Under the pieces are notes generated by a model. That model was not told the origin of the DNA. It ran no database searches and saw only the letters and a list, made by a program, of their open reading frames with translations. A DNA stretch of 64,000 nt, from assembly GCA_039980135.1 (NCBI GenBank), contig JBDXCV010000002.1:124001-188000 (forward strand), read 5' to 3'. Shown here in pieces: positions 30,110 through 58,592 of this stretch. Each line of letters starts with the position of its first letter. Position 1 is the first letter of the stretch. A program made the position numbers and the translations under genes. This DNA comes from Alphaproteobacteria bacterium (lineage in GTDB: Bacteria; Pseudomonadota; Alphaproteobacteria; UBA6615).

Positions 30110-30397
30110 ATGGCGCTCGATACCGACACCGTTCGTCGCATTGCGCGGCTCGCCCGCATCCACGTCGAAGACGCGGCGCTGGCGCCGCTTGCCGACGAGC
30201 TCAACAACATCCTCGGCTGGATCGAACAGCTCGACGAGGTCGACACGGACGGTGTCGATCCCATGACCAGCGTGGTCGAGATGGTCCAGCGCCTGCGCGC
30301 CGACGAGATGAATGACGGCGATATTCAGGAGGACGTGCTGGCCAACGCGCCGGACCCGGCGGACGGGTTCTTTACCGTACCGAAGGTGGTCGAGTAA
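30110..30397 (+). CDS. gatC: Asp/Glu-tRNA amidotransferase subunit C
   Basis: A 95-aa subunit that clamps GatA to GatB in the GatCAB amidotransferase. Family features are [14 protein letters not shown] at the start, [26 protein letters not shown] in the middle, and the end [11 protein letters not shown]. Its stop shares a base with the gatA start (TAATG). Confidence 0.96.
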
Positions 30398-31869
30398 TGA
30401 GCGCGTTGACCGACCTGACGATTGCCGCCGCGGGCGCGGGCCTCGACAAGGGTGACTTCACCGCCCGCGAGCTGACCGATGCGTATCTGGCCGCGATGGA
30501 AGATGCGCGCGCGCTCAACGCCTACACCGCCGAGACCCCGGAGCGGGCGCAGGCGATGGCCGACGCATCGGACGCGCGCCGTGCCAAGGGTGGTGTGGCG
30601 GGGCCGCTGGACGGTATCCCGCTGGCGATCAAGGATCTGTTCTGCACAGAGTGCGTGCTGTCCACGGCGGGCAGCCACATCCTCGACGGGTTCGAGCCAC
30701 GCTACGAATCGACCGTCACCCGGAACCTCTGGGATGCGGGTGCGGTCATGCTCGGCAAGGTGAACATGGACGAGTTCGCCATGGGCTCGGCCAACGTTAC
30801 CAGCCATTACGGGCCGGTGATCAATCCATGGAAGGCCGCCAGCGGCGACGCGGCGGGCAAGGATTTGGTGCCCGGCGGTTCGTCGGGCGGCTCGGCAGCG
30901 GCGGTTGCCGCACGGATCGCGGCGGGCGCGACCGGCACCGACACGGGCGGCTCGATCCGCCAGCCGGGTGCGTTCTGCGGCATCGTCGGCATGAAGCCGA
31001 CCTACGGGCGCTGCTCGCGCTGGGGCGTGATCGCGTTTGCCAGTTCGCTCGATCAGGCGGGACCGCTGACCCACACGGTCGAGGATTCCGCACTCATGCT
31101 GACGGCCATGGCGAGCTTTGACCCGAAGGATTCGACCAGCGTGGACCAGCCGGTGCCCGACTTCGCCGCGGCGCTGACGGGCGATATCCGGGGGCTCCGG
31201 GTCGGCGTGCCTGCCGAGTACCGGATGGATGGCACCCCGCCCGAGATCGAAGCGCTCTGGCAGCAGGGCATCGACTGGCTGCGCGACGCGGGCGCAGACA
31301 TCGTCGACATCTCGCTGCCCCACACGAAATATGCGCTGCCGGCTTATTACATCGTCGCACCGGCCGAAGCGTCCTCGAATCTGGCCCGCTATGACGGCGT
31401 GCGCTACGGGCTACGGATCGCGGGGGAAGATCTCGCCGACACCTATGAGCGGACCCGCGCCGAAGGCTTCGGCGCGGAGGTGCAGCGCCGGGTGATGATC
31501 GGGACCTATGTGCTCTCGGCCGGCTACTACGATGCCTATTACCTGAAGGCGCAGCGGGTGCGCACGCGTATCGCTGATGATTTCCGCGCCGCCTGGAGCA
31601 ACTGCGATGTAATCCTCACCCCGACCACGCCGAGTGCGGCGTTCGCCATCGGCGAGAAGATGGATGACCCGATCGCCATGTATCTGAACGATATCTTCAC
31701 CGTCCCGGCCTCGATGGCGGGGTTGCCGGCGATTTCGGTCCCGGCCGGTCTGTCGGGTGACGGGCTGCCGCTGGGGCTGCATTTGATCGCGCCCGCATTC
31801 GGCGAAGAGACGCTGTTTCGGGCCGCCGGCGTGCTCGAGAGTGCCGCAGCCTTCGACGCGCGTCCGTGA
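30397..31869 (+). CDS. gatA: Asp/Glu-tRNA amidotransferase subunit A
   Basis: A 490-aa amidase that releases ammonia from glutamine for transamidation of Glu-tRNA(Gln) or Asp-tRNA(Asn). The amidase-signature triad is K79 (LAIKD), S162 (GGSSGGS) and the nucleophile S186 (DTGGSIRQP). The next gene is gatB after 18 bp. Length is normal. Presence of the complex implies that at least one amide aminoacyl-tRNA is made indirectly. Confidence 0.97.
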
Positions 31870-31887
31870 GTTAGACTGAGAAACGAT

Positions 31888-33435
31888 ATGAGCGACGCGA
31901 CCGACACCGCCGACGAAAACATCCCCGAACATCTGGTGGCGCATTTCACGTCCCGGGTCGGCCACAACTCCGACGACCTGATCGAGGGCGAGACCGGGCC
32001 GTGGGAGATCGTCATCGGCATGGAGGTCCATGCCCAGGTGATTTCTGAATCCAAGCTCTTCTCCGGCGCGTCCACCGAATTCGGCGGTGAGCCCAACAGC
32101 CATGTGAGCCTCGTCGATGCGGCGATGCCGGGCATGCTGCCGGTGCTCAACATCGCCGCCGTCCGCCAGGCGGTGCGCACAGGGCTGGGCCTCGAGGCTG
32201 CGATCAACCTGCGTTCGGTGTTCGATCGTAAGAATTACTTCTACGCCGATTTGCCCCAGGGCTATCAGATCAGCCAGTTTTCCGATCCGATCGTGGGGGA
32301 GGGGCGCGTGTCCGTTGATCTGGAAGACGGCGAGAGCTTCGAGGTGGGCATCGTGCGCATTCACCTGGAGCAGGATGCGGGCAAGTCGATCCATGATCGC
32401 CACCCGACCCAGACCTATATCGATCTGAACCGCTCCGGTGTGGCGCTGATGGAGATCGTCTCCAAGCCCGACATCCGTTCCGGCGAGGAGGCGGCAGCCT
32501 ATCTGGCGAAGCTGCGCTCGATCCTGCGTTATCTGGGCACGTGCGACGGCAATATGCAGGAAGGCTCCATGCGCGCCGACGTGAATGTCTCGGTGCGCCG
32601 GCCGGGCGAAGACCTCGGCACGCGCTGCGAGATCAAGAACGTCAATTCGCTGCGGTCCGTGCGCGAGGCCGTGGATTACGAGGCGCGGCGCCAGGTCGAG
32701 ATCCTCGAAGAAGGCGGCGAGATCGATCAGGAGACGCGCCTGTTCGACGCCGACCGGGGCGAGACGCGCTCGATGCGTTCCAAGGAAGAGGCCCATGACT
32801 ATCGTTACTTCCCCGACCCGGATTTGCTGCCGGTCGTGATCGAGCAGTCGTTCGTGGACGAGATCAAGGCGAGCCTGCCCGAGCTGCCCGACGCCAAGGC
32901 GGCGCGGTTCGCCTCGGAGTTCGGCCTGAATGCCTATGATGCTGGTGTACTCGTCGCCGAGCGGGAGACGGCGGAATTCTATGAAGCCGTGGTCGATCCG
33001 GATGGTGCCAGGCGCGACCCAAAGATCGCCGCCAACTGGATCTCGGGAGATTTCTTTCGGCGCCTGAACGCCGATGATCTGGAGATCGCCGACAGCCCGG
33101 TCTCGGCCAGCCAGCTCGGCGGGCTGCTCGACCTGATCGCCGACGGGACCATTTCCGGAAAGATCGCCAAGGATGTGTTCGATGAGATGTTCGACAGCGG
33201 CAACGATGCGGCGGACATCGTCGAAGCCAAGGGCCTCAAGCAGATTTCGGACTCGGGCGAGATCTCAGCCATCGTCGATCAGATTATCGCCGACAACCCC
33301 GCCCAGGCCGACGAGTATCGGGGCGGCAACACCAAGGTCGCAGGCTGGTTCACCGGCCAGGTGATGAAGGCGACCCAGGGCAAGGCGAACCCGCAGATGG
33401 TCAACCAGCTGCTGCAGGAAAAGCTGGGCGGCTAG
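31888..33435 (+). CDS. gatB: Asp/Glu-tRNA amidotransferase subunit B
   Basis: A 515-aa subunit that binds the misacylated tRNA and activates it with ATP. The family opening [23 protein letters not shown] begins near residue 47, after an N-terminal extension of about 40 residues that is common in alphaproteobacteria. [18 protein letters not shown] and the C-terminal YqeY-like helical part ([24 protein letters not shown]) are present. Its stop lies one base from the convergent MORN gene stop. Confidence 0.97.
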
Positions 33436-35473: not shown

Positions 35474-36340
35474 ATGATCGGTGTCATCGGGGCCACAGGC
35501 TCCACCGGCCGCGCGCTTGTCGCGGCCCTCAAGGAAAAGGGCGCGGACTTCCGCTGCCTCGTGCGTGATCCGGCCGCGGCGGCCGAGAAACTCGGCGACG
35601 ATGTCGCGCTGGTGCAGGCCGACCTCGCCGATGCGGCGAGCCTCGAGACGGGCCTCGCGGGCTGCGACAAGGTCTTTCTGCTGTCGGGCCATAGCCCGGT
35701 GATGGTCGCGCAGCAGATGAACGCCGTGAATGCGGCCAAGTCCGTGGGTGCGACCCACATCGTCAAGCTGTCCGGCGGCAGCTTCATCATCAAGGAAGAC
35801 ACGCCGGCCAAGATCGGCCGCGGCCATTGGGAGATCGAGGAAGCGATCAAGACCAGCGGTCTCGACTGGACGTTCCTGCGCCCCGGCTTCTTCATGCAGA
35901 ACTTCCTGAACATGGCCGAGGCGATCAAGGCCATGGGCAAGGTGATGATGCCGCTGCCCGCCGATGTGGGACTCGGGATGATCGACGTGCGCGACACCGC
36001 GGACGCGGCGGCGGGAATCCTCACCACCGACGGCCATGCCGGCAAGGTCTATGAACTGTCCGGCTCGGATGTCAGCCCGGCGGAGGCCGTCTCCGCCATC
36101 GGATCTGTGATCGGCAAGGAGATCACCTTCGTCCAGGTACCCATGGAGGGCGCGATTGGCGCCATGAAGGAGCGCGGCATGCCCGACTGGCTGGTCGATC
36201 ATCAGAGCACCCTGATGGGAATCGCCGCGAATGGCGACATGGCGAGCTATGGCAACGATTTGATCGAGACCCTGGCCGGCCACGCGCCGCGCACGCCGGC
36301 GGATTTTGCCCGTGACCACGCGGCGGCGTTCGGCGGCTGA
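35474..36340 (+). CDS. NmrA-like NAD(P)-binding protein
   Basis: A 288-aa atypical short-chain dehydrogenase. The nucleotide loop is GVIGATGSTGRALVAALKEKG (residues 3-23) and VKLSGGSF replaces the usual Tyr-x3-Lys active site, as in NmrA and QorB-like proteins. DWTFLRPGFFMQNF is a further family mark. Such proteins are redox sensors or quinone/azo reductases. It is monocistronic, ending in a strong terminator. Confidence 0.85.
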   Translation: MIGVIGATGSTGRALVAALKEKGADFRCLVRDPAAAAEKLGDDVALVQADLADAASLETGLAGCDKVFLLSGHSPVMVAQQMNAVNAAKSVGATHIVKLSGGSFIIKEDTPAKIGRGHWEIEEAIKTSGLDWTFLRPGFFMQNFLNMAEAIKAMGKVMMPLPADVGLGMIDVRDTADAAAGILTTDGHAGKVYELSGSDVSPAEAVSAIGSVIGKEITFVQVPMEGAIGAMKERGMPDWLVDHQSTLMGIAANGDMASYGNDLIETLAGHAPRTPADFARDHAAAFGG

Positions 36341-36449: not shown

Positions 36450-36494
36450 TAATATGTGCACGAGACCATGACAATAAGGATGACGGAGGCCGCC

Positions 36495-37412
36495 ATGAGT
36501 GCCGTTGAGACCCTTACCGGAACCGAAGACGCCGACCCGAATGCCGCGCCTTCCAAGTACCAGTTTCTGCTGATCCCGCCGTTCCGTCTCCCGAGCAAAA
36601 CGAAATGGGGCTACCAGACCCTGCATCTGGACGGTGAGCTGCCGAAGAAAGAGCGCCTGATGAATGCCGACATGGTGCTGCCCTATCTCGGCGGCATCGA
36701 CTGGGACCTGCACCCGGGCGCCGAGGCGACCTATGGCGACTGGCCGGTGGAAACCCGCGAGGAGTTCGCCTACGCCTCTGATGCGCGGCTCAAGAATATC
36801 CGCATTGCGATCGAGACCGGCAAATATAACGGCATCGTGCTGCTCGGCGGCGGCGAGCCGGGCTTCCTCGAAGCGCGCGAGATGTGCCGCAAGGCGGGGA
36901 TCGTGTGCACGGGCAACGCCCATTCCCAGATGTATCTGGCGACGATCCTGGGCAACAAATATTCGGTGATCGACATCGCCGGCGTGCACAATGTCTACTA
37001 TCGCGACCTGATCTATCAGCACCAGCTGCAGAATCGCTGTGCGTCAATCCGTAACATCGGCATGCGTCTGCCTCGCCCCGGTGCAGAGGACGGACCCCAG
37101 CTGCGCGCCGAGCGCGAGAAGGCGCTGGCGGGCGAGAAATCCCTGGCGGTCGACAATGCGGTCGAGCAGGCGGAAAAGGCGCTGATGGAAGACGGCGCTG
37201 AGGTGATTACCCTTGGCTGTTCCGGCACCTTCTGGCTCAAGCCGTTCATCGAGAAGGGGCTTGCGGAGCGGGGTTGGGAAGTGCCCGTGCTCGAGGGTTA
37301 TTCGTCCTCGATCGCGCTGGCCAAGCTGATGATCGATCTGGGGGTGAACGCGTCCGGCATCACCTTCATGGAAGATCACCCCAAGCGGCTGCCCGAGAAG
37401 TTCATCGTCTGA
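36495..37412 (+). CDS. Asp/Glu/hydantoin racemase superfamily protein, single-Cys type
   Basis: A 305-aa protein of the Asp/Glu racemase fold. The second catalytic cysteine is present (ITLGCSGTFW, C242). In the first half, where racemases carry a cysteine (VIACFGDPG-like), this protein reads VLLGGGEPGF (G118-G120). One cysteine with a glycine in the other place is the pattern of arylmalonate decarboxylase, so decarboxylation or another one-base reaction is possible. ATG 36495 is chosen for its GGAGG ribosome site; an upstream GTG at 36456 is less likely. A palindromic operator candidate precedes it and a tRNA-Leu remnant follows the stop by 9 bp. Confidence 0.8.
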   Translation: MSAVETLTGTEDADPNAAPSKYQFLLIPPFRLPSKTKWGYQTLHLDGELPKKERLMNADMVLPYLGGIDWDLHPGAEATYGDWPVETREEFAYASDARLKNIRIAIETGKYNGIVLLGGGEPGFLEAREMCRKAGIVCTGNAHSQMYLATILGNKYSVIDIAGVHNVYYRDLIYQHQLQNRCASIRNIGMRLPRPGAEDGPQLRAEREKALAGEKSLAVDNAVEQAEKALMEDGAEVITLGCSGTFWLKPFIEKGLAERGWEVPVLEGYSSSIALAKLMIDLGVNASGITFMEDHPKRLPEKFIV

Positions 37413-37421
37413 CGTGTAGAA

Positions 37422-37481
37422 GCTGACTCAAAATCTGTTTCTCGCAAGGGAGTGGGAGTTCAAGTCTCCCCGGGGGCACCA
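37422..37481 (+). pseudogene. tRNA-Leu(CAA) 3' fragment
   Basis: Sixty bases match the 3' part of a class II leucine tRNA: anticodon loop CTCAAAA (anticodon CAA), a variable arm stem around GCAA, a perfect T arm (GGGAG-TTCAAGT-CTCCC), acceptor 3' strand CGGGGGC, then ACCA. The 5' acceptor strand and D arm are missing; upstream is the end of the racemase-like gene. The anticodon stem has one mismatch, perhaps at the crossover point. This is the usual footprint left when an element integrates into a tRNA gene. Confidence 0.88.
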
Positions 37482-37755: not shown

Positions 37756-38511
37756 TTAGCGTGCAGCCGTTTGGACACGCGTCGAGATGGTATACCGGTC
37801 AGCCGGATGGACGGCGATGACGTATTGGAATGGCTTGCCGTCCTGGCCGATGTACCAGCGTTGCATTTCGAGAGCCGGAGATCCTGGAGATGCGTCAAGG
37901 CGACGTGCCTCGTGATCGGCCAGCGCGATTGCCCGAACCTCCTGACGGAGCTCGATGATACGTTCACCATACCGTTCCTCGATTAGCTTGCCGATGAAAC
38001 CACGATATTTCCCGATTTCTGCGGCAGCGCCGGCATATATGTCGGCGATATAGATCGTGTTCCACGCAAGTGGCTGCGCTGTTTGCGTGGTACCGGTAAG
38101 CCGCAGAGCTTCGGTTTTCACGAAACGCTGGCCGGCTGTGCAGCCGATCGTCACCGCCAGTTCCGGATCGATTTCGAGAGTGTGTTGGCTCACATCCACC
38201 AACCTTGTCTTGTCGGCGTATTGCAGCAGATCGTCGATCGAACTGAACTGTTGCTGGTAGAGACCAGTCGGTTCGCGCGCTAAGACGGTCGTGCCCTTGC
38301 CTTGCTGGCTCGCGACCAGCCCAAGCGATTGCAGACGGCGCAGCGCTTCTCGCACAGTGTGCCGACTGACTCCGAACCGCTGGCCAATTGCCGTTTCGCC
38401 GGGCAGATATTCACCTGGCGCGAACACGCCATCACTGATCTCTTCGGCAAGCCGGCGTGCGACCTGCTCGTAGCGTGGTGCGCCGCGCACTGCACCCGGC
38501 GCGAGGCTCAT
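37756..38511 (-). CDS. GntR-family regulator, HutC/UTRA type
   Basis: A 251-aa repressor. The N-terminal winged helix is PRYEQVARRLAEEISDGVFAPGEYLPGETAIGQRFGVSRHTVREALRRLQSLGLV (about 12-65). The UTRA ligand domain follows (about 90-240). Such regulators respond to small acids, amino acids or sugars. It is divergent from the TRAP operon, with 511 bp between starts. It probably controls that operon and the convergent hydro-lyase operon, which share a sequence motif upstream. ATG 38511 removes a non-homologous leader. Confidence 0.9.
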   Translation of the reverse strand: MSLAPGAVRGAPRYEQVARRLAEEISDGVFAPGEYLPGETAIGQRFGVSRHTVREALRRLQSLGLVASQQGKGTTVLAREPTGLYQQQFSSIDDLLQYADKTRLVDVSQHTLEIDPELAVTIGCTAGQRFVKTEALRLTGTTQTAQPLAWNTIYIADIYAGAAAEIGKYRGFIGKLIEERYGERIIELRQEVRAIALADHEARRLDASPGSPALEMQRWYIGQDGKPFQYVIAVHPADRYTISTRVQTAAR

Positions 38512-39022
38512 ACGATACCTCCGGAATGCGTCTGTTCGATAGCAGGGCCCCGCTCTGCGATTAACGGGTTGTGGGGCACCTTGCACATTGCCAGCCAGAA
38601 CTTTCTCTTATTGCGCATCGGACAAATCCAGCTGTCCGCGGTCATGAAGGGCAGGCCGGACACCAGCGACCGACAGACAACGTGTGCGGCCTATGCCTGA
38701 TCGTGGCTGGCACCGAGATGCCCAGTTGCCAGATAGTCTAGATGAAACAGCACAGTATCGACAGCGCAACGTCGGCGTCGCGGTTATATCGACTTTGGAA
38801 CATAGGTTATGACTTGACCGGTTGTCCGTACAAGTACAATCTGTATCCGTAATCTGTCTATCGGCGGTGGGATGACTGTCTGGGGTGCTGGAACTACTGG
38901 ATAAGGAAATGGGGTGTGTTCGGTACACCTTGTGACGCTGCTGTTGCGGTGAGGCGCGCGTGCTGCCGCGACGATGACAATTCGGGTCAAACGAAACAAC
39001 AATACTAAGGGAGTCATACGTT
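38512..39022. other. long regulatory spacer between gntR and dctP
   Basis: 511 bp without a credible gene. It holds a promoter-like pair TTGACC (38814) and TACAAT (38835) with a 15-bp spacer. The candidate GntR operator overlaps this spacer. The remainder shows no further feature I can support. Confidence 0.6.
38822..38835. promoter_or_regulatory. candidate GntR operator at the TRAP promoter
   Basis: TTGT-CCGT-ACAA is a perfect inverted repeat; with the next bases it contains CCGTACAAGT. The same ten bases occur at 45004-45013 upstream of the hydro-lyase operon. It sits between the -35-like and -10-like elements, where repressor binding would block transcription. Confidence 0.5.
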
Positions 39023-40060
39023 ATGCCGATTTCAAAATTGCCGAAGTTAAGTTTGATTGCCACCGTAGCGGTTGCGATTGCGTCGGTTGCGACGACCATG
39101 AGCGCGTCTGCGGGCGAAAGATTTCGTATCTCGCTCGAGACTCCGCCCACACATCATCGAAACATTGCAATTCGGCAGTTTGTTGACCGGTTGTCCGAGA
39201 CAGCTGGGGACCAACTCGATGTCGAACTCTTCGAGTCCGGCCAGCTGTTTGGCGGTGGTGATGTGCCGCGCGCACTCGCGCAAGGCACGCTTGAAATGGG
39301 TGCCCCGGGCATGTGGCAAAATGTTAAGTTCGTGTCGAACGCTGGTGTCATGCAGCTACCGATGTTCTACGGCGCAACGCGAGATCAAATTCATGCGGTG
39401 ATGGACGGTGAACTCGGCGATGAGTTGGTCAAAGAAATCGAATCCAAAATGAAGGTCGTGATCATCGGACCTCAGTTGGACCATGGCTACGCCAACATAT
39501 ACACGGTCAACACGCCCATCCGTTCGTTTGACGATCTGAAAGGTCTGAAGCTGCGCGTTGTTGGCGGTTTCGCCAATACCCGTCGATACCAGGTGCTCGG
39601 CGCTGCGCCGGTTGGCGTGCCTTGGCCCGATACGCCACTGGCACTGACGCAAGGCACTGTGGAGGGGCTGTTCACGACCCACGTGACGGTGGCGAGCGCC
39701 AAACTCTGGGACGCCGGCATCAAGTATGCCTTCGAGGACCAGCAATGGTTCGCACAATATGTGCCGATGGTTAGTCGCAAGGTCTGGGACGATTTCGATG
39801 AAGCGACGAAAGCGGCCGTTATCGATGCCTGGGCAGAGACGATCAACGGTATGCGCGAGTTTACCGAAGCCAACCAGGGTCGGGCGCGTAAGCAGCTTGA
39901 AGGAAATGGTATCAATGTCGTCCAGGCGACACCTGAGCAGTTGAGCGCAATGCGCACACGGCTGCTCGCTGTACAGAACGAGATCGTCGAAAAAGGCAAG
40001 ATGGATGCCGACTATGTGGCCCGCGTGAAGGCTGCGCTCGACGCCGAAATGAGCAAATAG
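39023..40060 (+). CDS. TRAP transporter solute-binding protein (DctP type)
   Basis: A 345-aa periplasmic binding protein with a signal peptide (residues 1-30, cut near SASAGE). It captures an organic acid and hands it to the DctQM membrane units. The family region LKGLKLRVVGGFANTRRYQVLGAAPVGVPWPDTPLALTQGTVEGLFT contains the arginine (R in KLRV) that usually binds the substrate carboxylate. The substrate is unknown. It is the first gene of dctPQM, followed by a strong stem-loop before dctQ. Confidence 0.9.
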   Translation: MPISKLPKLSLIATVAVAIASVATTMSASAGERFRISLETPPTHHRNIAIRQFVDRLSETAGDQLDVELFESGQLFGGGDVPRALAQGTLEMGAPGMWQNVKFVSNAGVMQLPMFYGATRDQIHAVMDGELGDELVKEIESKMKVVIIGPQLDHGYANIYTVNTPIRSFDDLKGLKLRVVGGFANTRRYQVLGAAPVGVPWPDTPLALTQGTVEGLFTTHVTVASAKLWDAGIKYAFEDQQWFAQYVPMVSRKVWDDFDEATKAAVIDAWAETINGMREFTEANQGRARKQLEGNGINVVQATPEQLSAMRTRLLAVQNEIVEKGKMDADYVARVKAALDAEMSK

Positions 40061-40077
40061 CGCAGCGACTATATTTG

Positions 40078-40113
40078 CCGGTGCGGTTGCGCTTTCAGGC
40101 GCAACCGCACCGG
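40078..40113 (+). terminator. intercistronic stem-loop between dctP and dctQ
   Basis: CCGGTGCGGTTGCGC and its exact complement form a 15-bp stem with a 6-base loop, 17 bp after the dctP stop and without a T-run. Such hairpins usually stabilise the binding-protein message and lower expression of the membrane subunits. Confidence 0.8.
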
Positions 40114-40131
40114 TGGCAGTGCGAGGCAAAC

Positions 40132-40635
40132 ATGTCAAAGATCGAAGCATTGGTTGCGGCCCTACTGGCAACCGCGGGGCTGCTGTTGATCGCGTACGAA
40201 ATGGCGGCACGGGTATTTGTGCCGGAATGGGCCGTCGACTGGGGCCAGGAGTTGACGATCTTTCTCATCGTCTGGGCGATGTTGTTAACGGGCGGTATCC
40301 TGGTGCGTGAGAATGCGCATATTCGGGTGGACCTCGTGTTGCGCGTCCTGACACCGCGCTGGCTTAGCGCAGTTGAAATCTTCAATTGCACTGTCGGCGT
40401 GGTCTTCTGCACGGCGATGGCTTGGTTTGGGTACGAAGTGGTGCAGTTTGCCATCGAATTTGGTGAACGTAGCGAGACTTCCCTGCAGATTCCGATGGCG
40501 TTCTATTTTTCTTGCTTGCCGGTCGCCATGGCTCTGATGGCATTGCGCTACGTTATTCGGCTCTTCCAGATGATACGTGATTTTGGCGCTCCTACACCAA
40601 TCGACGAATTTCACCACCTCCCATCTGCAGACTGA
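40132..40635 (+). CDS. TRAP transporter small membrane subunit (DctQ type)
   Basis: A 167-aa protein with four membrane segments. LTIFLIVWAMLLTGGILVRENAHIRVDLVLRVL is the DctQ signature around segment two. It connects DctP and DctM function and is needed for transport. ATG 40132 is chosen; an earlier TTG at 40075 lies before the stem-loop. Confidence 0.88.
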   Translation: MSKIEALVAALLATAGLLLIAYEMAARVFVPEWAVDWGQELTIFLIVWAMLLTGGILVRENAHIRVDLVLRVLTPRWLSAVEIFNCTVGVVFCTAMAWFGYEVVQFAIEFGERSETSLQIPMAFYFSCLPVAMALMALRYVIRLFQMIRDFGAPTPIDEFHHLPSAD

Positions 40636-40676: not shown

Positions 40677-41957
40677 ATGCCATTTCTTACAGCTTTCGGC
40701 GTGCTCTTCGGCGCACTTGCTGCGGGGATGCCGATCTTCCTCGTGCTTGGCGCGACCTCGCTGTTGCTCTTCTGGATCGAAGGCGAGCCGCTGATTGGCG
40801 TGGCTCAGGTCGTTGTCAATCGGCTCAATTCGGCGGCGCTGATTGCCGTGCCGTTTTTCGTGATCGCGGCAACCTTCATGGCCAAGGGCGGCGTCGCACG
40901 GGCGCTTGTCGATTTTGCCAACGCCTGGGTTGGTCGCCTGCAGGGCGGTCTCGGCCTGGTCTGCGTTGTCGCAACCACAATCTTTGCTGCGATCAGCGGC
41001 TCCTCAGTCGCCACGGCGATGGCTATGGGCACGGTGCTGGTGCCGGCAATGATGCAGGCGCGCTACGAACGCCATTTTGCGCTCGGTGTTGTCGGGGCGT
41101 CGGGCACTCTCGGCATTCTGATTCCGCCGAGCCTCGGCATGATTATTTTTGCCTTGGTCGCCGACGAATCAGTGCCTCAGCTGTTCCTTGCTGGTGTCGT
41201 GCCGGGCCTGATTCAGGTTGCGCTATTTGTTGTAATTGTTCTCGTATACGCCCGCCGAAAGAACTATCCGGCTGGCGAACCGATGTCGCGTGACGAGTTC
41301 ATCGCTGTCAATTTGCACGCATTGCCGGCGCTCACGCTGCCGGTCATTGTGCTGGGTGGTATCTATGGCGGTTTCGTGACCGTGACGGAGGCGGCCGGCC
41401 TTTCGGCGATCGTGGCGATAGCCCTCAGTGTCTTGGTCTACAAGGAATGCCGACCGGGTCAGATCCTCGAATTTATGGCGGACGGCGTCAAATCAGCTGG
41501 CTCGATCATCATTATTGTTGCGGGCGCAATGCTGTTCGGCCACTGGATTATTGAATCCGGCGCCCCGCACACTCTTGTGGATTGGGTTATCGATCAGGAA
41601 ATCGAGGCTTGGCAGTTTCTGCTGTTCATGAACGTTATCATGCTGATCCTTGGCACGTTTCTTGAGGGCATTTCGATCATCCTGATCACCGTGCCGCTCG
41701 TTCTGCCATTGCTGCAAGCGCTCGGTATCAGTCCGATCCACTATGCGATCATCGTTACGGTTAACCTTGAGATAGGCCTGTTGACCCCGCCAATCGGGCT
41801 AAACCTGTTTGTTCTCTCGTCAATTTCAAAGGCGCCGGTCACTGAGGTGGTGCGTGGTGTCTTGCCGTTCTTCGTCGGTATGTTAGCCTTTTTGATGCTG
41901 ATCACCTTTGTGCCGGTGTTGTCCACTTGGCTTCCCGGCCTCGTTTTCGGGCGATAG
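40677..41957 (+). CDS. TRAP transporter large permease (DctM type)
   Basis: A 426-aa permease with about twelve membrane segments that couples solute import to sodium or proton flow. Signatures include GGVARALVDFANAWVGRLQGGLGLVCVVATTIFAAISGSSVATAMAMG, LIPPSLGMIIFA and NLEIGLLTPPIGLNLFV. The upstream gap to dctQ is 41 bp. Its stop faces the GST gene stop, 18 bp away. Confidence 0.92.
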   Translation: MPFLTAFGVLFGALAAGMPIFLVLGATSLLLFWIEGEPLIGVAQVVVNRLNSAALIAVPFFVIAATFMAKGGVARALVDFANAWVGRLQGGLGLVCVVATTIFAAISGSSVATAMAMGTVLVPAMMQARYERHFALGVVGASGTLGILIPPSLGMIIFALVADESVPQLFLAGVVPGLIQVALFVVIVLVYARRKNYPAGEPMSRDEFIAVNLHALPALTLPVIVLGGIYGGFVTVTEAAGLSAIVAIALSVLVYKECRPGQILEFMADGVKSAGSIIIIVAGAMLFGHWIIESGAPHTLVDWVIDQEIEAWQFLLFMNVIMLILGTFLEGISIILITVPLVLPLLQALGISPIHYAIIVTVNLEIGLLTPPIGLNLFVLSSISKAPVTEVVRGVLPFFVGMLAFLMLITFVPVLSTWLPGLVFGR

Positions 41958-41975: not shown

Positions 41976-42683
41976 CTACTTCGTATGGCGGGTTGGTGAT
42001 TGGCCGAAATAGTTCGCGTGTTGTTCGGATGTGAGCGGTTCACGGCGCTGTTTGTTGCTCAAGATCATAAGTCCTTCCTGCACCGCAGGCCGGTTGGCGA
42101 TTGTGTTGTACCAACGCTTGAGATTGGGAAAATCGTTGAGGTTCTGTCGTTGAACCTTGTGGTTGATCATCCAGGGGAATGTTGCGATGTCGGCGATCGT
42201 GTAGTTGTCCCCGGCGAGGTAGGCCGAGTCGCGTAGTCGGCGGTCGATGACGCCATAAAGCCGAGCAGTCTCGTTGACATATCGGTCAATAGCGTAGGGA
42301 ATCTTCTCTGGCGCATAGTGGTCGAAGTGGTGGTTCTGACCTAGCATGGGGCCCACGCCGCCGACCTGAAACATTAGCCATTGCAAGACATTGTAGTGGC
42401 CGCGTGGGTCCTCACTGGCGGATGGCAGTAGGCTTCCGTTTTTGTTTGCCAAATAGATCAGGATTGCACCTGACTCAAAAATCGATATCGGTACGCCATC
42501 CGGCCCGTCATCGTCGACGATCGCCGGAATCTTGCCGTTCGGGCAGATATCTAGGAAATCAGGCTGGTGTTGATCACCGGCACCGATGTCGATGGGCTGG
42601 ATCGTATAGGCCAAATCGCATTCGGCCAGCATGATGTGCAGCTTTTTGCCGTTTGATGTCGGCCATGTGTAGGCATGAATCAT
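41976..42683 (-). CDS. glutathione S-transferase, YfcG/nu-class-like
   Basis: A 235-aa GST. The opening IHAYTWPTSNGKKLHIMLAECDL resembles the bacterial disulfide-bond reductases YfcG and YghU (Thr/Asn in the active site instead of Tyr or Cys). Other marks are NGKIPAIVDDDGPDGVPISIFESGAILIYLA and the helical domain GGVGPMLGQNHHFDHYAPEKIPYAIDRY. A second protein of the same subfamily is encoded at 60204. It is the last gene of the hydro-lyase operon (22 bp after the GFA gene) and probably uses glutathione on a pathway compound. Confidence 0.88.
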   Translation of the reverse strand: MIHAYTWPTSNGKKLHIMLAECDLAYTIQPIDIGAGDQHQPDFLDICPNGKIPAIVDDDGPDGVPISIFESGAILIYLANKNGSLLPSASEDPRGHYNVLQWLMFQVGGVGPMLGQNHHFDHYAPEKIPYAIDRYVNETARLYGVIDRRLRDSAYLAGDNYTIADIATFPWMINHKVQRQNLNDFPNLKRWYNTIANRPAVQEGLMILSNKQRREPLTSEQHANYFGQSPTRHTK

Positions 42684-42704: not shown

Positions 42705-43121
42705 CTAACCGGGTTGGGTGTCGTTGACTTCGGCGCCGTCAGGAATGTCGACCCATCGCTGCTTGCTGGAGACCCAGAGATGCCGCTCCGGTTGCAAGTC
42801 TTGCGTGTTGTCGAGAGTGCCTGGTTTTAGTGCGATGACCCCGGGCTTTTCAGGCTGGTTGTATATTCGGCTGCCGCATTCCGGGCAAAAAGCACAAAGT
42901 TTTTTGCGGCCGGATGGCGCTTTAAGACTGATTGTCTTCAACGCACCGGCCGTGAGTTGAAAACCAGCCGTCGGGACCTGCAGGCTGAGGCCAAAGGCGC
43001 TGCCAGACTGGCGCTGACAGTCAGTGCAGTGGCATGCGATCAGTTGCTTTGGCGATTCGGTCAGGACATAGCGGATATGGCCACATTGGCAGCCACCGGT
43101 TTGTTTCGCCGTGTCATTCAT
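42705..43121 (-). CDS. GFA-family zinc protein
   Basis: A 138-aa protein of the glutathione-dependent formaldehyde-activating (GFA) family. All zinc motifs are present: GGCQCGHIRY, CHCTDCQRQSG, and CPECGSRIY. The founding member was described as linking formaldehyde to glutathione; most members have unknown substrates. Its position between the hydro-lyase and a GST points to glutathione-linked handling of a reactive carbonyl, which is inference. Confidence 0.88.
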   Translation of the reverse strand: MNDTAKQTGGCQCGHIRYVLTESPKQLIACHCTDCQRQSGSAFGLSLQVPTAGFQLTAGALKTISLKAPSGRKKLCAFCPECGSRIYNQPEKPGVIALKPGTLDNTQDLQPERHLWVSSKQRWVDIPDGAEVNDTQPG

Positions 43122-43159: not shown

Positions 43160-43684
43160 TCACTGGCGGGCGCGGGCTTCCGCGACTCGCCGAGCTACCA
43201 TCGGTTTCCAGCCACCGAGGGCGATTGTTTCGAGCAGTTTCGATGGAAGCGGATCGTATTGAATCTCGGTCTCGTGTGTCAGATTTCGGAATAGGCCGCT
43301 CGCGAAATCGACCTCAAGGTTGTCGCCGTTCTCGCAAGCGGCTGTCACACCCGGGCATCTCGGCAGGAACGGCAGGCCCGCGTTGACTGCCATGCGAAAG
43401 CTGCTATGCGGGATCGACTCGACCACCAGACCAAGTCCGTTCGCCTGGATACCGATCAGCCCCTGGATGTGGGGGTTGCCCTGGGCAAAACGCTTGCCGG
43501 CGACAAGGATGTCTCCAGGTGCGACCTGCTTCTGCATTTCAGGGTCGTATCCTTCCATGAAATAGGGCCGCAAAACATCGGGGTCTGTCTCACGCTGCAT
43601 GGCAAAACGCAGCGGCATCAGATCGCCGTCGACGCCGATATTGTCACCGACCTTCCAGCAGCGTCCGCGGTAAATCCAGTTCAT
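43160..43684 (-). CDS. aconitase/isopropylmalate dehydratase-type small subunit, divergent
   Basis: A 174-aa swivel-domain subunit. The opening YRGRCWKVGDNIGVDGDLMPLRFA, the motif VAPGDILVAGKRFAQGNPH and the C-terminal ANGLGLVVESIPHSSFRMAVNAGLPFL follow LeuD/AcnA-type folds. In classical members the loop reads GKNFGCGSSREHA and its Ser-Arg bind substrate and act in catalysis. Here the aligned loop is GKRFAQGNPHIQG, so the Ser-Ser-Arg is gone. Substrate and perhaps chemistry must differ. Its start overlaps the large-subunit stop (ATGA). Confidence 0.82.
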   Translation of the reverse strand: MNWIYRGRCWKVGDNIGVDGDLMPLRFAMQRETDPDVLRPYFMEGYDPEMQKQVAPGDILVAGKRFAQGNPHIQGLIGIQANGLGLVVESIPHSSFRMAVNAGLPFLPRCPGVTAACENGDNLEVDFASGLFRNLTHETEIQYDPLPSKLLETIALGGWKPMVARRVAEARARQ

Positions 43685-44943
43685 GACTGAAGCAACTCTC
43701 GTGGATCGACGATCTTTCCGGCGATGGCCGACGCAGCAACCGTCAGTGAGGAAGCAAGGTAGATATCCGCAGTCTCTGAGCCGAGTCGGCCGTAGTCATT
43801 ACGCGTGCCGGTGTTGATTGACACTTCGCCGTCGGCTGTCGGGCCGATGCGGCCGGCGGCGCAGGTGCCGCAGCCAGGTGCCGTCACCATCGCACCTGAA
43901 TTCAGGAAGATTTCTGTCAGGCCTTCAGCCGACGCGCGAGCGGCGATCTCCAGCGTTCCGGGAGTGATAAACAGACGGACATGGTCCGAAATTCGACGTC
44001 CCTTCAGCAAGCGGGCAGCATCACGCAGATCTGTCAGTGTTCCGCCAGCGCAACTGCCGATTGATGCGTGATCGATCGGCGTGCCGGCGACTGCAGAGAC
44101 GCCGACCACATTGTCCGGCGTGGGCGGGGCGGCGACCTGCGGTTCGAGTAGGCCAAGGTCAATATCGTAGCTCGCAAGAAACTTCGCATCGTCGTCGCTG
44201 CGCATCTCGTTGAGTGGGCCCTCAACGCGGTCGCGCAGATAGTCGAATGTCACCGCATCGGTCTCCACGACCGATGATTTGGCGCCGATTTCGAGCGGCG
44301 TATTGCAGAGGATCATGCGCTGGTCGATGCTGAGATCAGCGAGCGCTGGTCCACCATACTCGACCACCGAGTAGTCGATAATGTCGGGGTCAAGATCGCC
44401 AATCAGGCGTTGTGCTATATCGCGAATCGCGATGCCGTCGGGCAGCGATCCGGTCAGGTTCACCCGGACAGTTTCCGGGACTCGGCACCAGCAATTGCCA
44501 AGTGCGATGACCTCGCTGATTTCAAAAGCCATGGCGAACGCAAGACAGCCAACTGCACCGAAATTCGTCACATGTGGGTCATAAGCAAGAACGAAGCCGC
44601 CCGGTTTGATGAAGCCCTTCTCGACCGGGAGGATATGGCCGTGGCCTGGTTCTGACGTGTCGAAGTGGTGCCGGATACCGTATTTCTTGGCGATGGCACG
44701 CGCCTGTTTCTGACGCAATGCCGCTTGCGGACTAACTGCCACTGGCTCGTGGCAGGTCGACATGATCATGTGCTCGGGATCGTGGACGCGGTCGATGCCC
44801 AGATCTTGTAGGGCACGGTCGAAATTCACGATATACCAGTCATGTACGGTAACCCAATCGCCCTCCGGGTAGACGATCTCGCCGGGTGTCGCGGCGCGTC
44901 CCAGCACGCGGCTGAGAATTTTCTCGGTAATTGTCTGACCCAT
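43681..44943 (-). CDS. aconitase/isopropylmalate dehydratase-type large subunit, divergent
   Basis: A 420-aa [4Fe-4S] hydro-lyase subunit. The three cluster cysteines are present (IGSCAGG and APGCGTC), as is a late TRNDYGRLG that matches NRNFEGR. Two active-site motifs differ: the usual D-H pair reads CH (STCHEPV) and the usual DSH reads DPH (AYDPHVTNFGA). GHGHILPVEKGFIKPGG keeps a histidine. The enzyme likely adds or removes water on a hydroxy-acid that differs from citrate or isopropylmalate. It opens the minus-strand operon large subunit, small subunit, GFA, GST. Confidence 0.84.
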   Translation of the reverse strand: MGQTITEKILSRVLGRAATPGEIVYPEGDWVTVHDWYIVNFDRALQDLGIDRVHDPEHMIMSTCHEPVAVSPQAALRQKQARAIAKKYGIRHHFDTSEPGHGHILPVEKGFIKPGGFVLAYDPHVTNFGAVGCLAFAMAFEISEVIALGNCWCRVPETVRVNLTGSLPDGIAIRDIAQRLIGDLDPDIIDYSVVEYGGPALADLSIDQRMILCNTPLEIGAKSSVVETDAVTFDYLRDRVEGPLNEMRSDDDAKFLASYDIDLGLLEPQVAAPPTPDNVVGVSAVAGTPIDHASIGSCAGGTLTDLRDAARLLKGRRISDHVRLFITPGTLEIAARASAEGLTEIFLNSGAMVTAPGCGTCAAGRIGPTADGEVSINTGTRNDYGRLGSETADIYLASSLTVAASAIAGKIVDPRELLQS

Positions 44944-45013: not shown

Positions 45014-45354
45014 CCAGAGGCAATATGTGAAATAGTGCATATTTTTGGGAATCAACAATTCTCATCGGCCAAGTTCGACTAAGGCTAGAATTTGATCACG
45101 CCGATACTGACAGAGACAAAGTGCAGGCCTGATCGTTGAGGCTCGCGAATGACGAAATGTGTAAGCACTAAGTAAGCAGGCGGCGGAGAAAGAGATAGTA
45201 TAGGCAAGGCCGAACAAGCTGACTAAATACCTGTAAAAAATGGATAAAACGTAATCTTTAGTGCGCGATAGGACTGCGTAGAAAACGCCTTTTTGCGACT
45301 TACGCCTTGTGGTGGTTCGCGGGCAGATCTGTTGACCACCCGAGGCGAGGCCGG

Positions 45355-45387
45355 TATCACTCACTTCAATAATTGAAGTGAGTGATA
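45355..45387. promoter_or_regulatory. perfect 33-bp palindrome at the HxlR start
   Basis: The left arm is TATCACTCACTTCAAT, the centre a single A, and the right arm ATTGAAGTGAGTGATA. All 16 base pairs match. The last base is the A of the HxlR ATG at 45387. This is almost certainly the operator for autoregulation; in RNA it would also form a hairpin covering the ribosome site. Confidence 0.88.
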
Positions 45388-45866
45388 TGAGCCGGTCCGA
45401 TCTCGCCTCCCAGGTTTGTACCTACGCCCGCACCATCGAGCTGCTCGGCAACGAGTGGACCTTGATGATACTGCGCGAGCTGTTCCTGGGCAGTCGCCGG
45501 TTTGATGATTTGCGGAGCCAGACCGGCGCCTCGCCGCATACCCTGAGCCAGCGCCTCAAGCGACTGGAGGGCGCCGGCATTCTGCGCCGCGAGGCCTATA
45601 GCGAACACCCGCCGCGTTATGAATACCGCCTGACGGCCATGGGGCGTGATCTCTGGCCGATCATCATCGCGATCAAGCAGTGGGGCGACAAATGGTTCGA
45701 GGGTGACACCACCCATGTCGAAATCACCCATAAGGATTGCGGCGCGACCGTGACGCCGCGCATGACCTGTCCGGATTGCGGCGCGCCGATGCACGCCCAT
45801 GATTCCGAACCCCGTCTTTCCACCGAATATGAAAACGAACGCCGCGTCGCCGGGAGGCAGACATGA
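45387..45866 (+). CDS. HxlR-family regulator with C-terminal cysteines
   Basis: A 159-aa winged-helix regulator. The core is CTYARTIELLGNEWTLMILRELFLGSRRFDDLRSQTGASPHTLSQRLKRLEGAGIL followed by YRLTAMGRDLWPII. The N-terminal cysteine (C11 or so) is typical of thiol- or aldehyde-sensing HxlR proteins. The tail has DCGATVTPRMTCPDCG, a zinc-ribbon-like set of cysteines. A perfect palindrome abuts its start. Its stop overlaps the nitronate monooxygenase start (ATGA), so both are expressed and probably regulated together. Confidence 0.9.
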   Translation: MSRSDLASQVCTYARTIELLGNEWTLMILRELFLGSRRFDDLRSQTGASPHTLSQRLKRLEGAGILRREAYSEHPPRYEYRLTAMGRDLWPIIIAIKQWGDKWFEGDTTHVEITHKDCGATVTPRMTCPDCGAPMHAHDSEPRLSTEYENERRVAGRQT

Positions 45867-46840
45867 AAACACGTATCACCGAAATGCTCGGAATCGAGCA
45901 TCCGATCATCCAGGGCGGCATGCACTATGTGGGTTTCGCGGAACTCGCCGCCGCGGTCTCGAATGCCGGCGGGCTGGGCATCATCACGGGCCTGACCCAG
46001 AAAACGGCGCCGGACCTCGCCAACGAGATCGCGCGCTGCCGCGACATGACCGACAAGCCCATCGGGGTCAACCTGACCTTCCTGCCGATCGTTGACGAAC
46101 CGGACTATCCCGGTCTGATCCAGGCGGTCATCGACGGCGGGGTCAAGATCGTCGAGACCGCCGGAAACAACCCCGCGAAGTGGCTGCCGGTCCTCAAGGA
46201 CAACGGCATCACCGTGATCCACAAATGCACGACCGTCCGCCATTCCCTGAAGGCCCAGGAGATCGGCTGTGACGCCGTTTCGGTCGACGGTTTCGAATGC
46301 GGGGGCCATCCCGGCGAGGACGACATCCCCAACATGATCCTGCTGCCCCGGGCCGCCGATGAGCTCGAAATCCCCTTCGTCGCCTCGGGCGGCATGGCGG
46401 ATGCGCGTTCGCTGGTCGCCGCGCTGGCCATGGGGGCGGATGGCATGAACATGGGCACGCGCTTCATCGTGACCAGGGAAGCGCCGGTGCATGACAATGT
46501 GAAGGCGGCGATCGTGGCCGCGAGCGAGTTGGACACGCGCCTGGTGATGCGGCCGCTGCGCAATACCGAACGTGTTCTCACCAACGCGGCTGTCGAACGC
46601 CTGCTGGAGAAGGAACGGGAACTCGGCGCGAATATCGAATTCACCGACATCGCGCCGGAGGTCGCCGGGGTCTATCCCAAGGTCATGCTCGACGGCGATA
46701 TGGACGCGGGCGCCTGGTCGTGCGGCATGGTCGCCGGCCTGATTCACGACATCCCGACCTGCAAGGAACTGATCGACCGGATCATGACCGACGCGGATGC
46801 GTTGATCCGTCAGCGGCTCGAAGGCATGGCGGCGGCCTAG
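45863..46840 (+). CDS. nitronate monooxygenase family protein
   Basis: A 325-aa FMN enzyme of the 2-nitropropane dioxygenase fold. The opening GIEHPIIQGGMHYVGFAELAAAVSNAGGLGII, the catalytic-histidine motif GFECGGHPGEDD, and the phosphate loop SGGMADARSLVAALAMGADGMNMGTRF are all typical. It oxidises alkyl nitronates or acts on related compounds such as propionate-3-nitronate. It is translationally coupled to the HxlR gene. Its stop overlaps the RND pump stop by four bases on the opposite strand. Confidence 0.9.
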   Translation: MKTRITEMLGIEHPIIQGGMHYVGFAELAAAVSNAGGLGIITGLTQKTAPDLANEIARCRDMTDKPIGVNLTFLPIVDEPDYPGLIQAVIDGGVKIVETAGNNPAKWLPVLKDNGITVIHKCTTVRHSLKAQEIGCDAVSVDGFECGGHPGEDDIPNMILLPRAADELEIPFVASGGMADARSLVAALAMGADGMNMGTRFIVTREAPVHDNVKAAIVAASELDTRLVMRPLRNTERVLTNAAVERLLEKERELGANIEFTDIAPEVAGVYPKVMLDGDMDAGAWSCGMVAGLIHDIPTCKELIDRIMTDADALIRQRLEGMAAA

Positions 46841-49800
46841 TCGCCTTTTACGGGCACGCGACCGGCCAGTTCAGCGTCCAGCGCCCTTTCGACGGTCGCA
46901 CGCGGTTTCGAGAAGCCCGCCATCAGGTTGTACAGCACCGGGGTCAGGAACAGGGTCAGGATCAATGACAGCCCCAGTCCGCCGACAATCACGGAACCAA
47001 TCGCAATCCGGCTCTCGGCGCCCGCGCCCGATGCGAGCACCAGCGGCACGGCACCGAGTATGGTCGAGATAACCGTCATGAAAATCGGTCGGGCGCGCAG
47101 CACGGCGGCTTCGACAACCGCCTCGCGAACATTCATGCCCTCGTCGCGCAACTGGTTTGCGAACTCGACGATCAAGATGCCGTTCTTGGCCATCAACCCG
47201 ATCAGCAGCACGATACCGATTTGGCTATAGACGTTGAGGGACAGGCCGGCGGCGAACAGTGCATAGACCGCACCCGCGACCGCGAGTGGCACGGACAGCA
47301 TGATCACGAGCGGGTGGATGAAGCTCTCGAACTGGGCCGCGAGGACCAGAAACACGATCACCAGCGCCATCAGGAAAACGGTCATCGTATCGCTCGACGT
47401 GTCCTTGAAGACGGCCGACTGGCCGGAATAACCCAGCCGTGCATTGTCGGGGAGAATGTCAGCCGCCCCGGCCTCCATGAAAGAAATGGCGTCGCCGAGC
47501 GCATAACCCGGCTCAAGCCCGGCGGAAATCGTGATCGAGGGCAGCCGGTCGGTGCGGCGTAGCTCCGGTGCGGCAGCGCTTTCCGATGCCGCCACCAGCG
47601 CACTCAGAGGCACCAGGGATGTGCCATCACCCGCCCGCACGAAGATGTTGGAAATATCTGTCGGGGTCCGGCGGTCCTCCGGCTGCGCCTGGGTGATCAC
47701 CGGATATTCGCGGCCACGGTCGATATATTGCGTGACTTCGCGGGACGCGAACATCGTCTGAAGCGTCTGGGCGACAAGTTCCGCGGGGATGCCCAAATCA
47801 TTCGCGCTGGCCCGGTCCAGGCGCAGGTCGAGCTGCGGCTGATTTTCCTCATAGTCGATCTGAGGATTGACCAGACGTTCGTTGGTTTCCGCATGCTCGA
47901 GAAGCGCCGCGGCCCATAATTTGACCAGCTCGAAATCGGGACCGCCGACGACGATGCGAAGTGGCGTCGAGTTGCCGCGCAGACCAAGGCCGGCCGGGCT
48001 GGCAACGCCGGCGCGCGCACCGGCCAGGCCGCGCGCGGCCGGCTGTATCGCATTGACCACATCGGCCTGGCTCGCCTCGCGGTCTTCCCACTGCGCCAGG
48101 CGCATGACGACGAAGGCGCGGTAGGGCCGGTTGCCCCAGCCGACGAGTGAATAGACCGTGACGATGTTGCCGTTGTCGACCTGCGGCTGGAGGGCACGTT
48201 CGATCACGCTTGCCTGCTCGTTGGTGTAGGCGGTGGTTGCACCCTGGGGGGCGGTAATCGGTACGAACGCGACTCCCCGGTCTTCGGATGGCGCAAGCTC
48301 GCGTGGCAGCGTCTGGTACAGAATCACGGCGCCAACGACGAACAGCAGAGAAAGCGCGATGACGATCAGCGGCAGCCGGAGCGCGGTTTCGAGGCCCCGG
48401 CGATAGACCTGGGCAAGGCGTGGGGCCGTCGCCGCGGTATCGCTGCCACCGGCAGCTGGTGTGTTGGCTCTGGCCTTGACCACGCGTGACGCGATCATCG
48501 GGCACAGGCTGAGCGCGACGAAGGTCGAGATCACCACGGCACCCGCCATCACCATGCCGAACTCGCTGAACAGACGACCGACCTGTCCGCCCAGAAACGA
48601 GATCGGAATGAAAACGGCAATCAGGGTCACGGAAGTCGCGAGCACCGCGAAGGTCACCTGGCGGGTTCCGAGCACGGCGGCGATGAGCCGCGACTCCCCG
48701 CCATCGACCCGGCGCTGGATGTTTTCCAGCACCACGATGGCGTCATCCACGACGAGGCCGATCGCCAGCAACAGCGCAAGCAGGGTCAGCACATTGATCG
48801 AGAAACCGAATGCCGCGACCATCGAGAGGCAGCCGATCAGAGCAACGGGGATCGTCACCGCGGGGACCAGCGTGGCGCGGAACGAACGTAGGAACAACAG
48901 GATCACCAGCACGACCAGCGTGAGGGAAATGCCGAGCGCGATCAGCACCTCACGGATGGAGGCAGAGATAAACAGTGCGTCGTCCGATCCGACGATGATC
49001 CTCATCCCTTCGGGCATCGTCGGTTCCATGGCAACGATTTCCGCCCGAACCTCATTCGATATCGCCATCGTATTGGCCTGGCTTTGCCGGATGACCTGCA
49101 GCCCGATGGCGGGCTGCCCGTTGGCACGGACGATCGTGTTGTCGTCCTCCACCCCGCGGACGACCGTGGCCACATCGCCGATGCGAACCGGATACCCATC
49201 GACGGTCTTGATGGAGATATTGCGGAACTGGTCGGGTGTCGTGAGACGGCTATCGAGACGAATGTCGAGCAGGCGCTGGCTCGACGTGATTTCGCCGGCC
49301 GGCAACTCCACGTTGTTGCGCCGGATAGCGGCCTCGACATCCGAGACCGTCAGGTTGCGGGCCGCCAATGCACGTCGGTCGAGCCAGATTCGGATGGCGA
49401 AACGGCGTTCGCCGCGCAAGTCGACGGAGGCCACGCCGTCGAGGGTAGAGAGACGGTCGATCACAAACCGCTCGACATAATCGGTGATCTCTTCCGGCGA
49501 GTGTCGGTCCGAGGTGACCGCCAGACGCATGACCGGATCGGCGTCGCTGTCGTTCTTGATCACGATTGGCTCGTCGACGCCGTCGGGCAGACTGCCGCGA
49601 ATGCGTCCCACGGCGTCGCGCACGTCGTTTGCCGCTTCGTCGATATTCCGGCCGACTTCGAACTCGATGACCGTCCGGGACCGCCCGCGGCGGCTCTGGG
49701 AGGAGATGGTCTTGACACCGGACACCCCGGCGATCGAGCTCTCCACGATTTCGGTGATGTCTGTATCGACGATTTGAGGCGAGGCGCCCGTATAAGTCGT

Positions 49801-49944
49801 CGTGACGGTGACGATGGCGGAATCGATATCCGGCAGCTCACGGATGGGAAGCGTGAGCAGGGACCCGACGCCCATCACGACGATCAGCAGGCTGGCGACG
49901 AGCGCCAGGACGGGGCGTTTTATGGAAATATCCGAAAGCGTCAT
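46837..49944 (-). CDS. RND multidrug efflux permease (HAE1 type)
   Basis: A 1035-aa inner-membrane pump of the AcrB/MexF superfamily that exports drugs or solvents by proton exchange. The opening SDISIKRPVLALVASLLIVVMGVGSL, two large periplasmic loops, and the proton-relay segment ALLLAIGLVVDDAIVVLENIQRR (Asp pair) are canonical. It lies downstream of its adaptor gene (64 bp). No outer-membrane channel or regulator is adjacent; the channel must be shared. ATG 49944 gives the family start. Confidence 0.94.
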   Translation of the reverse strand: MTLSDISIKRPVLALVASLLIVVMGVGSLLTLPIRELPDIDSAIVTVTTTYTGASPQIVDTDITEIVESSIAGVSGVKTISSQSRRGRSRTVIEFEVGRNIDEAANDVRDAVGRIRGSLPDGVDEPIVIKNDSDADPVMRLAVTSDRHSPEEITDYVERFVIDRLSTLDGVASVDLRGERRFAIRIWLDRRALAARNLTVSDVEAAIRRNNVELPAGEITSSQRLLDIRLDSRLTTPDQFRNISIKTVDGYPVRIGDVATVVRGVEDDNTIVRANGQPAIGLQVIRQSQANTMAISNEVRAEIVAMEPTMPEGMRIIVGSDDALFISASIREVLIALGISLTLVVLVILLFLRSFRATLVPAVTIPVALIGCLSMVAAFGFSINVLTLLALLLAIGLVVDDAIVVLENIQRRVDGGESRLIAAVLGTRQVTFAVLATSVTLIAVFIPISFLGGQVGRLFSEFGMVMAGAVVISTFVALSLCPMIASRVVKARANTPAAGGSDTAATAPRLAQVYRRGLETALRLPLIVIALSLLFVVGAVILYQTLPRELAPSEDRGVAFVPITAPQGATTAYTNEQASVIERALQPQVDNGNIVTVYSLVGWGNRPYRAFVVMRLAQWEDREASQADVVNAIQPAARGLAGARAGVASPAGLGLRGNSTPLRIVVGGPDFELVKLWAAALLEHAETNERLVNPQIDYEENQPQLDLRLDRASANDLGIPAELVAQTLQTMFASREVTQYIDRGREYPVITQAQPEDRRTPTDISNIFVRAGDGTSLVPLSALVAASESAAAPELRRTDRLPSITISAGLEPGYALGDAISFMEAGAADILPDNARLGYSGQSAVFKDTSSDTMTVFLMALVIVFLVLAAQFESFIHPLVIMLSVPLAVAGAVYALFAAGLSLNVYSQIGIVLLIGLMAKNGILIVEFANQLRDEGMNVREAVVEAAVLRARPIFMTVISTILGAVPLVLASGAGAESRIAIGSVIVGGLGLSLILTLFLTPVLYNLMAGFSKPRATVERALDAELAGRVPVKGD

Positions 49945-50008
49945 CGTTCGATGGTCCGGGATGGGCGGTGCGCCCGTGGCGGAGCGGGTTGCGAAATGTG
50001 CGGGCACA

Positions 50009-53820: not shown

Positions 53821-53836
53821 AAGTACTGAAAATATC

Positions 53837-53851
53837 TCATCAATATGATGA
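53837..53851. promoter_or_regulatory. LysR-box palindrome
   Basis: TCATCA-ATA-TGATGA is a perfect inverted repeat in the LysR/VOC gap. A further half copy, TTGATGA, lies at 53863-53869. Paired sites of this kind are usual for LysR regulators. Confidence 0.6.
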
Positions 53852-53912
53852 TCACAATCCTATTGATGAACAAAGTTGCTTAAACGATGGTGTTGGAAAG
53901 GGAGATACGATC

Positions 53913-54431: not shown

Positions 54432-54453
54432 GCGTGTCCTTAGGGGAACTTTA

Positions 54454-56858: not shown

Positions 56859-57021
56859 GACTTTATATTGCTTCAAGGCTTGGATTGGACTCGAAAAATC
56901 GTGACGGTCCAGGTTTGAACAGTTGGGGTGCGTGGAGGAAACGCAAGACCAACAAGAACGACAGATCAATTACAGCGCCCGCTGTCCTAGTCAGAGCAAC
57001 CGCTTCACTCAGGAGAGCTTC

Positions 57022-58029: not shown

Positions 58030-58055
58030 CGCGAGATCCAAAAGGTTCCTGAGCC

Positions 58056-58589: not shown

Positions 58590-58592
58590 TCG

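Follow-up and report, generated by a model that had tools for sequence, protein, structure and literature searches.

A 60-base piece of a tRNA-Leu(CAA) gene in a genome from an uncultured alphaproteobacterial family was found to be, with high confidence, the edge of a lineage-specific insertion. It forms the left boundary of a 7.8-kb block of cargo genes (37.42-45.23 kb) that extends to its right. The interpretation we favor, at a probability of about one half, is that the block is the remnant of an element carrying an anticodon-type tRNA-Leu attP, which integrated at a secondary, intergenic site. Coordinates refer to the window, the whole 64,000-nt stretch of DNA that was analyzed (C2:124001-188000 of a 3.76-Mb host assembly in 15 contigs), and are collected in Table 1.

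A truncated tRNA-Leu(CAA) follows the racemase-like gene

The fragment (37422..37481, plus strand; GCTGACTCAAAATCTG...GGGGGCACCA) comprises the final 60 bases of tRNA-Leu(CAA), beginning in the anticodon stem and ending with the CCA, and its identity is certain. It matches positions 31-87 of the family tRNA-Leu(CAA) in 57 of 57 bases, positions 28-29 match too, and the similarity ends at position 28, where the anticodon stem begins, and is at chance level upstream of this base. In the terms used by Islander, the fragment is a tDNA piece with the 3´ end of the gene (positions 28-87, CCA included). Since ARAGORN called no tRNA in the 64,000-nt window and an Rfam search returned no matches there, the window is without a whole tRNA gene. 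The first-pass annotation, which had described a truncated tRNA-Leu(CAA) with no 5´ half and no intact copy to its left, was thus correct on these points, as it was in placing the fragment directly after a racemase-like gene and at a change of composition: the racemase stop lies at 37412, the fragment starts 9 nt later, and at its start GC content falls from ~63% to ~57%. An apparent D-loop homology to the left of the fragment (GTAGA) was rejected as chance, with 31% of shuffles scoring equally, and RNA folding of the fragment itself gave no stable fold.

Table 1. Features of the window flanking and composing the inserted block
Feature	Coordinates	Strand	Basis and remarks
nuoM and nuoN region	30397..33435	+	Left backbone; names read from position and size
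NmrA-like gene	35474..36340	+	Pfam NmrA; in the same genus, final native gene before the variable slot opens on the right
Asp/Glu racemase-like gene	36456..37412	+	Adjoins the fragment
Proposed left att (attL'), AAGCTGACTCAAAATCTGT	37420..37438	+	19-bp direct repeat with 45216-45234, 16/19
GntR/UTRA transcriptional regulator	37756..38586	-	Pfam; cargo
TRAP transporter DctP	39023..40060	+	Pfam; cargo
TRAP transporter DctQ	40075..40635	+	Pfam; cargo
TRAP transporter DctM	40677..41957	+	Pfam; cargo
Glutathione S-transferase (GST)	41976..42683	-	Pfam; cargo
GFA-domain glutathione-dependent protein	42705..43121	-	Pfam; cargo
LeuD/homoaconitase small-subunit-like	43160..43684	-	NCBIfam LEUD_arch, below curated cut-off; cargo
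LeuC/homoaconitase large-subunit-like	43681..44943	-	Pfam; NCBIfam hacA_fam just below cut-off; cargo
Proposed right att (attR'), AAGCTGACTAAATACCTGT	45216..45234	+	LeuC-HxlR intergenic space; 16/19 repeat
HxlR regulator	45378..45866	+	First native gene on the right (HxlR-NMO-ALDH module)
Nitronate monooxygenase-like (NMO)	45863..46840	+	Native right flank

The fragment bounds a block of genes found in no relative examined

Gene order in the window runs NmrA, racemase, fragment, cargo, HxlR, NMO. The DNA to the left of the fragment (nuoMN, a transporter gene, NmrA) is conserved, and the nuoMN region is kept, with the same genes after it, in same-genus and same-family genomes. In two genomes of the same genus (G003 and G001), NmrA leads directly to NMO, followed by an aldehyde dehydrogenase (ALDH) gene and a GFO/IDH gene. 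The racemase gene is missing from the other members of this genus (g1) and is found after NmrA in genus g6, with NmrA leading to the racemase in G011 and the racemase leading to a LysR gene in G011 and G022. HxlR-NMO-ALDH forms a conserved module elsewhere in genus g6, and in the window similarity to the native HxlR-NMO module starts at ~45363. Where relatives of the racemase region are named, they are without exception metagenome-assembled Alphaproteobacteria. Our initial reading, a 15.5-kb insertion between the racemase and LysR genes based on G011 and G022, was dropped because the same-genus genomes show NMO and ALDH to be native to the backbone. The start of HxlR carries a perfect inverted repeat of 16 bp (45355-45387), probably the HxlR operator.

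The GntR-DctPQM-GST-GFA-LeuD-LeuC segment was present in no relative examined. Relatives sharing both the fragment and its downstream genes, the outcome that the first-pass annotation had named as refuting an integration scar, were sought and none was found. The best relatives of DctP, in other genera of the family, are 47-48% identical (60 genomes searched), with no counterpart in same-genus genomes; those of LeuC reach 60-62% (385 genomes of the class), and no closer donor of the cargo than these was found in the genomes searched. The GC content of the block is 56.8%, compared with 62-64% in most flanking genes, an argument weakened by a second TRAP cluster in the window (56.9-60.1 kb) that is equally low in GC (57.3%). 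Together with the GST gene that follows it (56923-60908 for the whole, at similarly low GC), this second cluster forms a looser parallel of the inserted one. The cargo probably serves to import and degrade an organic acid, a predicted substrate.

A direct repeat is found at both edges of the block

The 19 bases that begin at 37420 recur at 45216, in the same orientation and with three mismatches. This is the sole second match in the window, where 0.01 would be expected by chance, a significance somewhat overstated because the repeat was first spotted by eye in the expected region and then tested window-wide. Across 220 kb of the host genome it is also the only other match to reach 15/19. When intergenic sequences were simulated in a further test, 0.6% of them matched the fragment equally well. 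The right copy lies ~130 nt before the start of similarity to the native HxlR-NMO module. The first nine bases of both copies are identical (AAGCTGACT); the overlap used by tyrosine recombinases is usually ~7 bases, for which these nine are long enough.

The left junction carries a tRNA 3´ end and the right junction is without tRNA homology. Two properties of a secondary-site integrant are seen here: direct repeats, although imperfect (16/19), flank the inserted segment, and the tRNA portion of the attP is at one junction only. The exact empty site, with the racemase leading directly to HxlR-NMO, was present in no relative examined, though the flanks are conserved, and the junctions are for this reason bracketed rather than proven.

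The annotated genes of the block include no integrase, relaxase or phage gene. Islander islands contain a non-Xer tyrosine integrase and a secondary-site integrant has a cognate one; the only PF00589 proteins in the assembled genome are XerC and XerD. Given this absence of an integrase, the element would be a remnant, or its movement would have depended on a recombinase provided in trans.

The intact tRNA-Leu(CAA) lies elsewhere, in conserved surroundings

The sole other copy of the sequence in the whole genome is an intact tRNA-Leu(CAA) on a different contig (C3:1092190-1092276; L002 1471-1557), a gene that the first-pass annotation had proposed to locate together with its neighbors, which proved ordinary and conserved. 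Gene order on both sides is the same as in G006, G002, G021, G023, G011, G022, G003 and G017, and the only difference beside the host tRNA is a 1.44-kb DUF2254 gene in place of the 5.4-kb cupin-cox segment of the relatives; the cupin gene is absent from the host genome, with no copy relocated elsewhere in it. This conserved order means that no island, of any size, runs from the tRNA towards the fragment. With the intact tDNA on another contig, the two do not bound an island in one replicon as in Islander.

The anticodon stem of the host tRNA-Leu is CTGGA/TCCAG, which among the sequences compared occurs elsewhere only in G006; it represents a compensatory change, with CAGA/TCTG in the other relatives. 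The fragment equals the tRNA-Leu of G002, G004, G011, G021 and G023 and is closer to these than to the host's own derived tRNA. Because it differs from the host anticodon stem, it was not copied recently from the resident gene; judging from these sequences, it would come from a family member with an ordinary tRNA, or would predate the stem change in the host.

Two other genomes carry 3´ fragments of tRNA-Leu(CAA) cut in the anticodon arm, which provide independent support for an att-type reading of the window fragment. The one in G036 (L055, G036:C156, 491-550) begins at the same base as the window fragment and, from position 29 onward, shows no difference from the intact tRNA of G036 itself; inspection by eye of the translated ORFs of this 3.3-kb contig revealed no obvious integrase. 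In G023 (L054, G023:C372), an intact tRNA-Leu(CAA) (3665-3751) and a decayed 3´ fragment (5635-5690) are separated by 1.9 kb with a PEP-mutase-like gene and a NIPSNAP gene, and the decayed fragment is followed by the cupin-cox genes, the normal downstream neighbors of the tRNA. The G023 locus has the form of a small integrase-less insertion at the tRNA site.

Discussion

Our data suggest a model in which the primary target of a mobile element would be tRNA-Leu(CAA), with crossover in the anticodon arm, and in which this element would have integrated instead at a secondary site, the intergenic space 3´ of the racemase gene. Recombination, which would have involved a tyrosine integrase, may have taken place within all or part of a short core, AAGCTGACT. 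On the left, host DNA would have been joined directly to the attP half with the tRNA 3´ end (37420-37481), followed by the cargo; the right end would be the core-like sequence at 45216-45234, which has no tRNA homology and beyond which the native HxlR-NMO genes resume. Later loss of the integrase would have left a fixed 7.8-kb cargo encoding GntR, the TRAP transporter, GST, GFA and a LeuDC-like dehydratase. An attP containing the 3´ half of tRNA-Leu and recombining at a non-tRNA site would give exactly the two junctions observed. We favor this secondary-site model because the fragment is cut at the anticodon stem, on its 5´ side, and is intact to the CCA, as in anticodon-centered islands, and because of the repeat at the far edge, the direct NmrA-NMO order in G003 and G001, the low GC content and the lack of an island at the host tRNA-Leu.

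The predicted attP would consist of AACAAGCTGACT, then CAAAATCTG plus the tRNA 3´ end. An exact attP search gave no match in viral contigs, and plasmid and phage records gave just one distant Pseudomonas megaplasmid match and two Microbacterium phage tRNA genes; neither a donor nor a circular form was found in these collections.

The main rival to secondary-site integration is that the GntR-TRAP-LeuDC genes lay just downstream of tRNA-Leu(CAA) in a related donor, and that a piece broken within the tRNA was transferred and joined here by illegitimate recombination, such that the fragment would record a donor breakpoint and not an att site. We regard this as unlikely, while giving it more weight than any other alternative. 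It accords with a fragment that matches the family-type tRNA rather than that of the host, and with the variability of the tRNA-Leu 3´ flank in the family, which may hold the 5.4-kb cupin-cox segment, the 1.44-kb DUF2254 gene of the host, or the 1.9-kb insert and decayed fragment of G023. However, neither the right-hand copy of the direct repeat nor the cut point shared with the G036 fragment is predicted by it, and no genome was found with GntR-TRAP-LeuDC after tRNA-Leu.

It is a good deal less probable that the fragment is a tRNA pseudogene copy that happens to border an unrelated gene cluster and is unlinked to the insertion. The lack of an integrase would fit such an origin, and the imperfect 19-bp repeat might itself be chance, at the ~1% level, but the position of the fragment exactly at the insertion edge, a cut point typical of att sites, and the 3´ fragments of the same tRNA in two other genomes all argue against it.

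The geometry predicted by the first-pass annotation, an intact tRNA-Leu upstream with the island between it and a fragment representing attR, later rearranged, agrees with the type of 3´ fragment but is very improbable here, being contradicted by the intact gene on C3 with conserved order on both sides and only a 1.44-kb replacement, by the conserved nuo-NmrA backbone to the left of the fragment, and by the differing anticodon stem of the host tRNA; a classic island spanning C3 to C2 was ruled out because the genes downstream of tRNA-Leu are conserved. The broader claim of an integration scar fared better, as the fragment is probably one, at an insertion edge with a matching repeat at the far edge, and of the options the annotation left, an old rearranged event or a different geometry, the latter is favored, with the island to the right of the fragment.

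Anticodon-centered sites and displaced 3´ fragments are the common form among the islands catalogued by Islander, in which the anticodon-centered class makes up 2083 of 3919 (PMC4383910). The window resembles them in having a 3´ tRNA fragment that starts at the anticodon arm and metabolic cargo, and G036 and G023 likewise hold 3´ fragments of the same tRNA. Unlike those islands, the block lacks an integrase and, on the same contig, an intact tRNA at its other end, and it lies downstream of the fragment. A second comparison is SGI1, for which secondary-site integration into an intergenic region (sodB-purR) produced direct repeats differing from attP (PMC2297512). The window block shares an intergenic target and short direct repeats with SGI1 at sodB-purR, but SGI1 is a complete mobilizable element, whereas the block is an integrase-less remnant with a putative excised form.

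These observations imply that an island located away from the tRNA can still be marked by a tRNA fragment. Such a case would escape an Islander-style rule, in which the limits of an island are set by the intact tRNA and the fragment, and is found by comparison with relatives. The observations also identify a variable site, tRNA-Leu(CAA), in this uncultured family of Alphaproteobacteria. A more general scheme, which we consider improbable, is that small integrase-less catabolic cassettes in this family repeatedly enter and leave tRNA-Leu(CAA), and also enter secondary sites, with the help of a recombinase provided in trans; the 1.9-kb insert of G023 and the window fragment would be two such cassettes. 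Beyond the block, the RND-HlyD pair and the LysR/OsmC genes (46837-51115 and 52918-54987) are differently placed among relatives, with RND-HlyD to the left of the racemase in G023, and the stretch past nuoN has the character of a reshuffled catabolic region.
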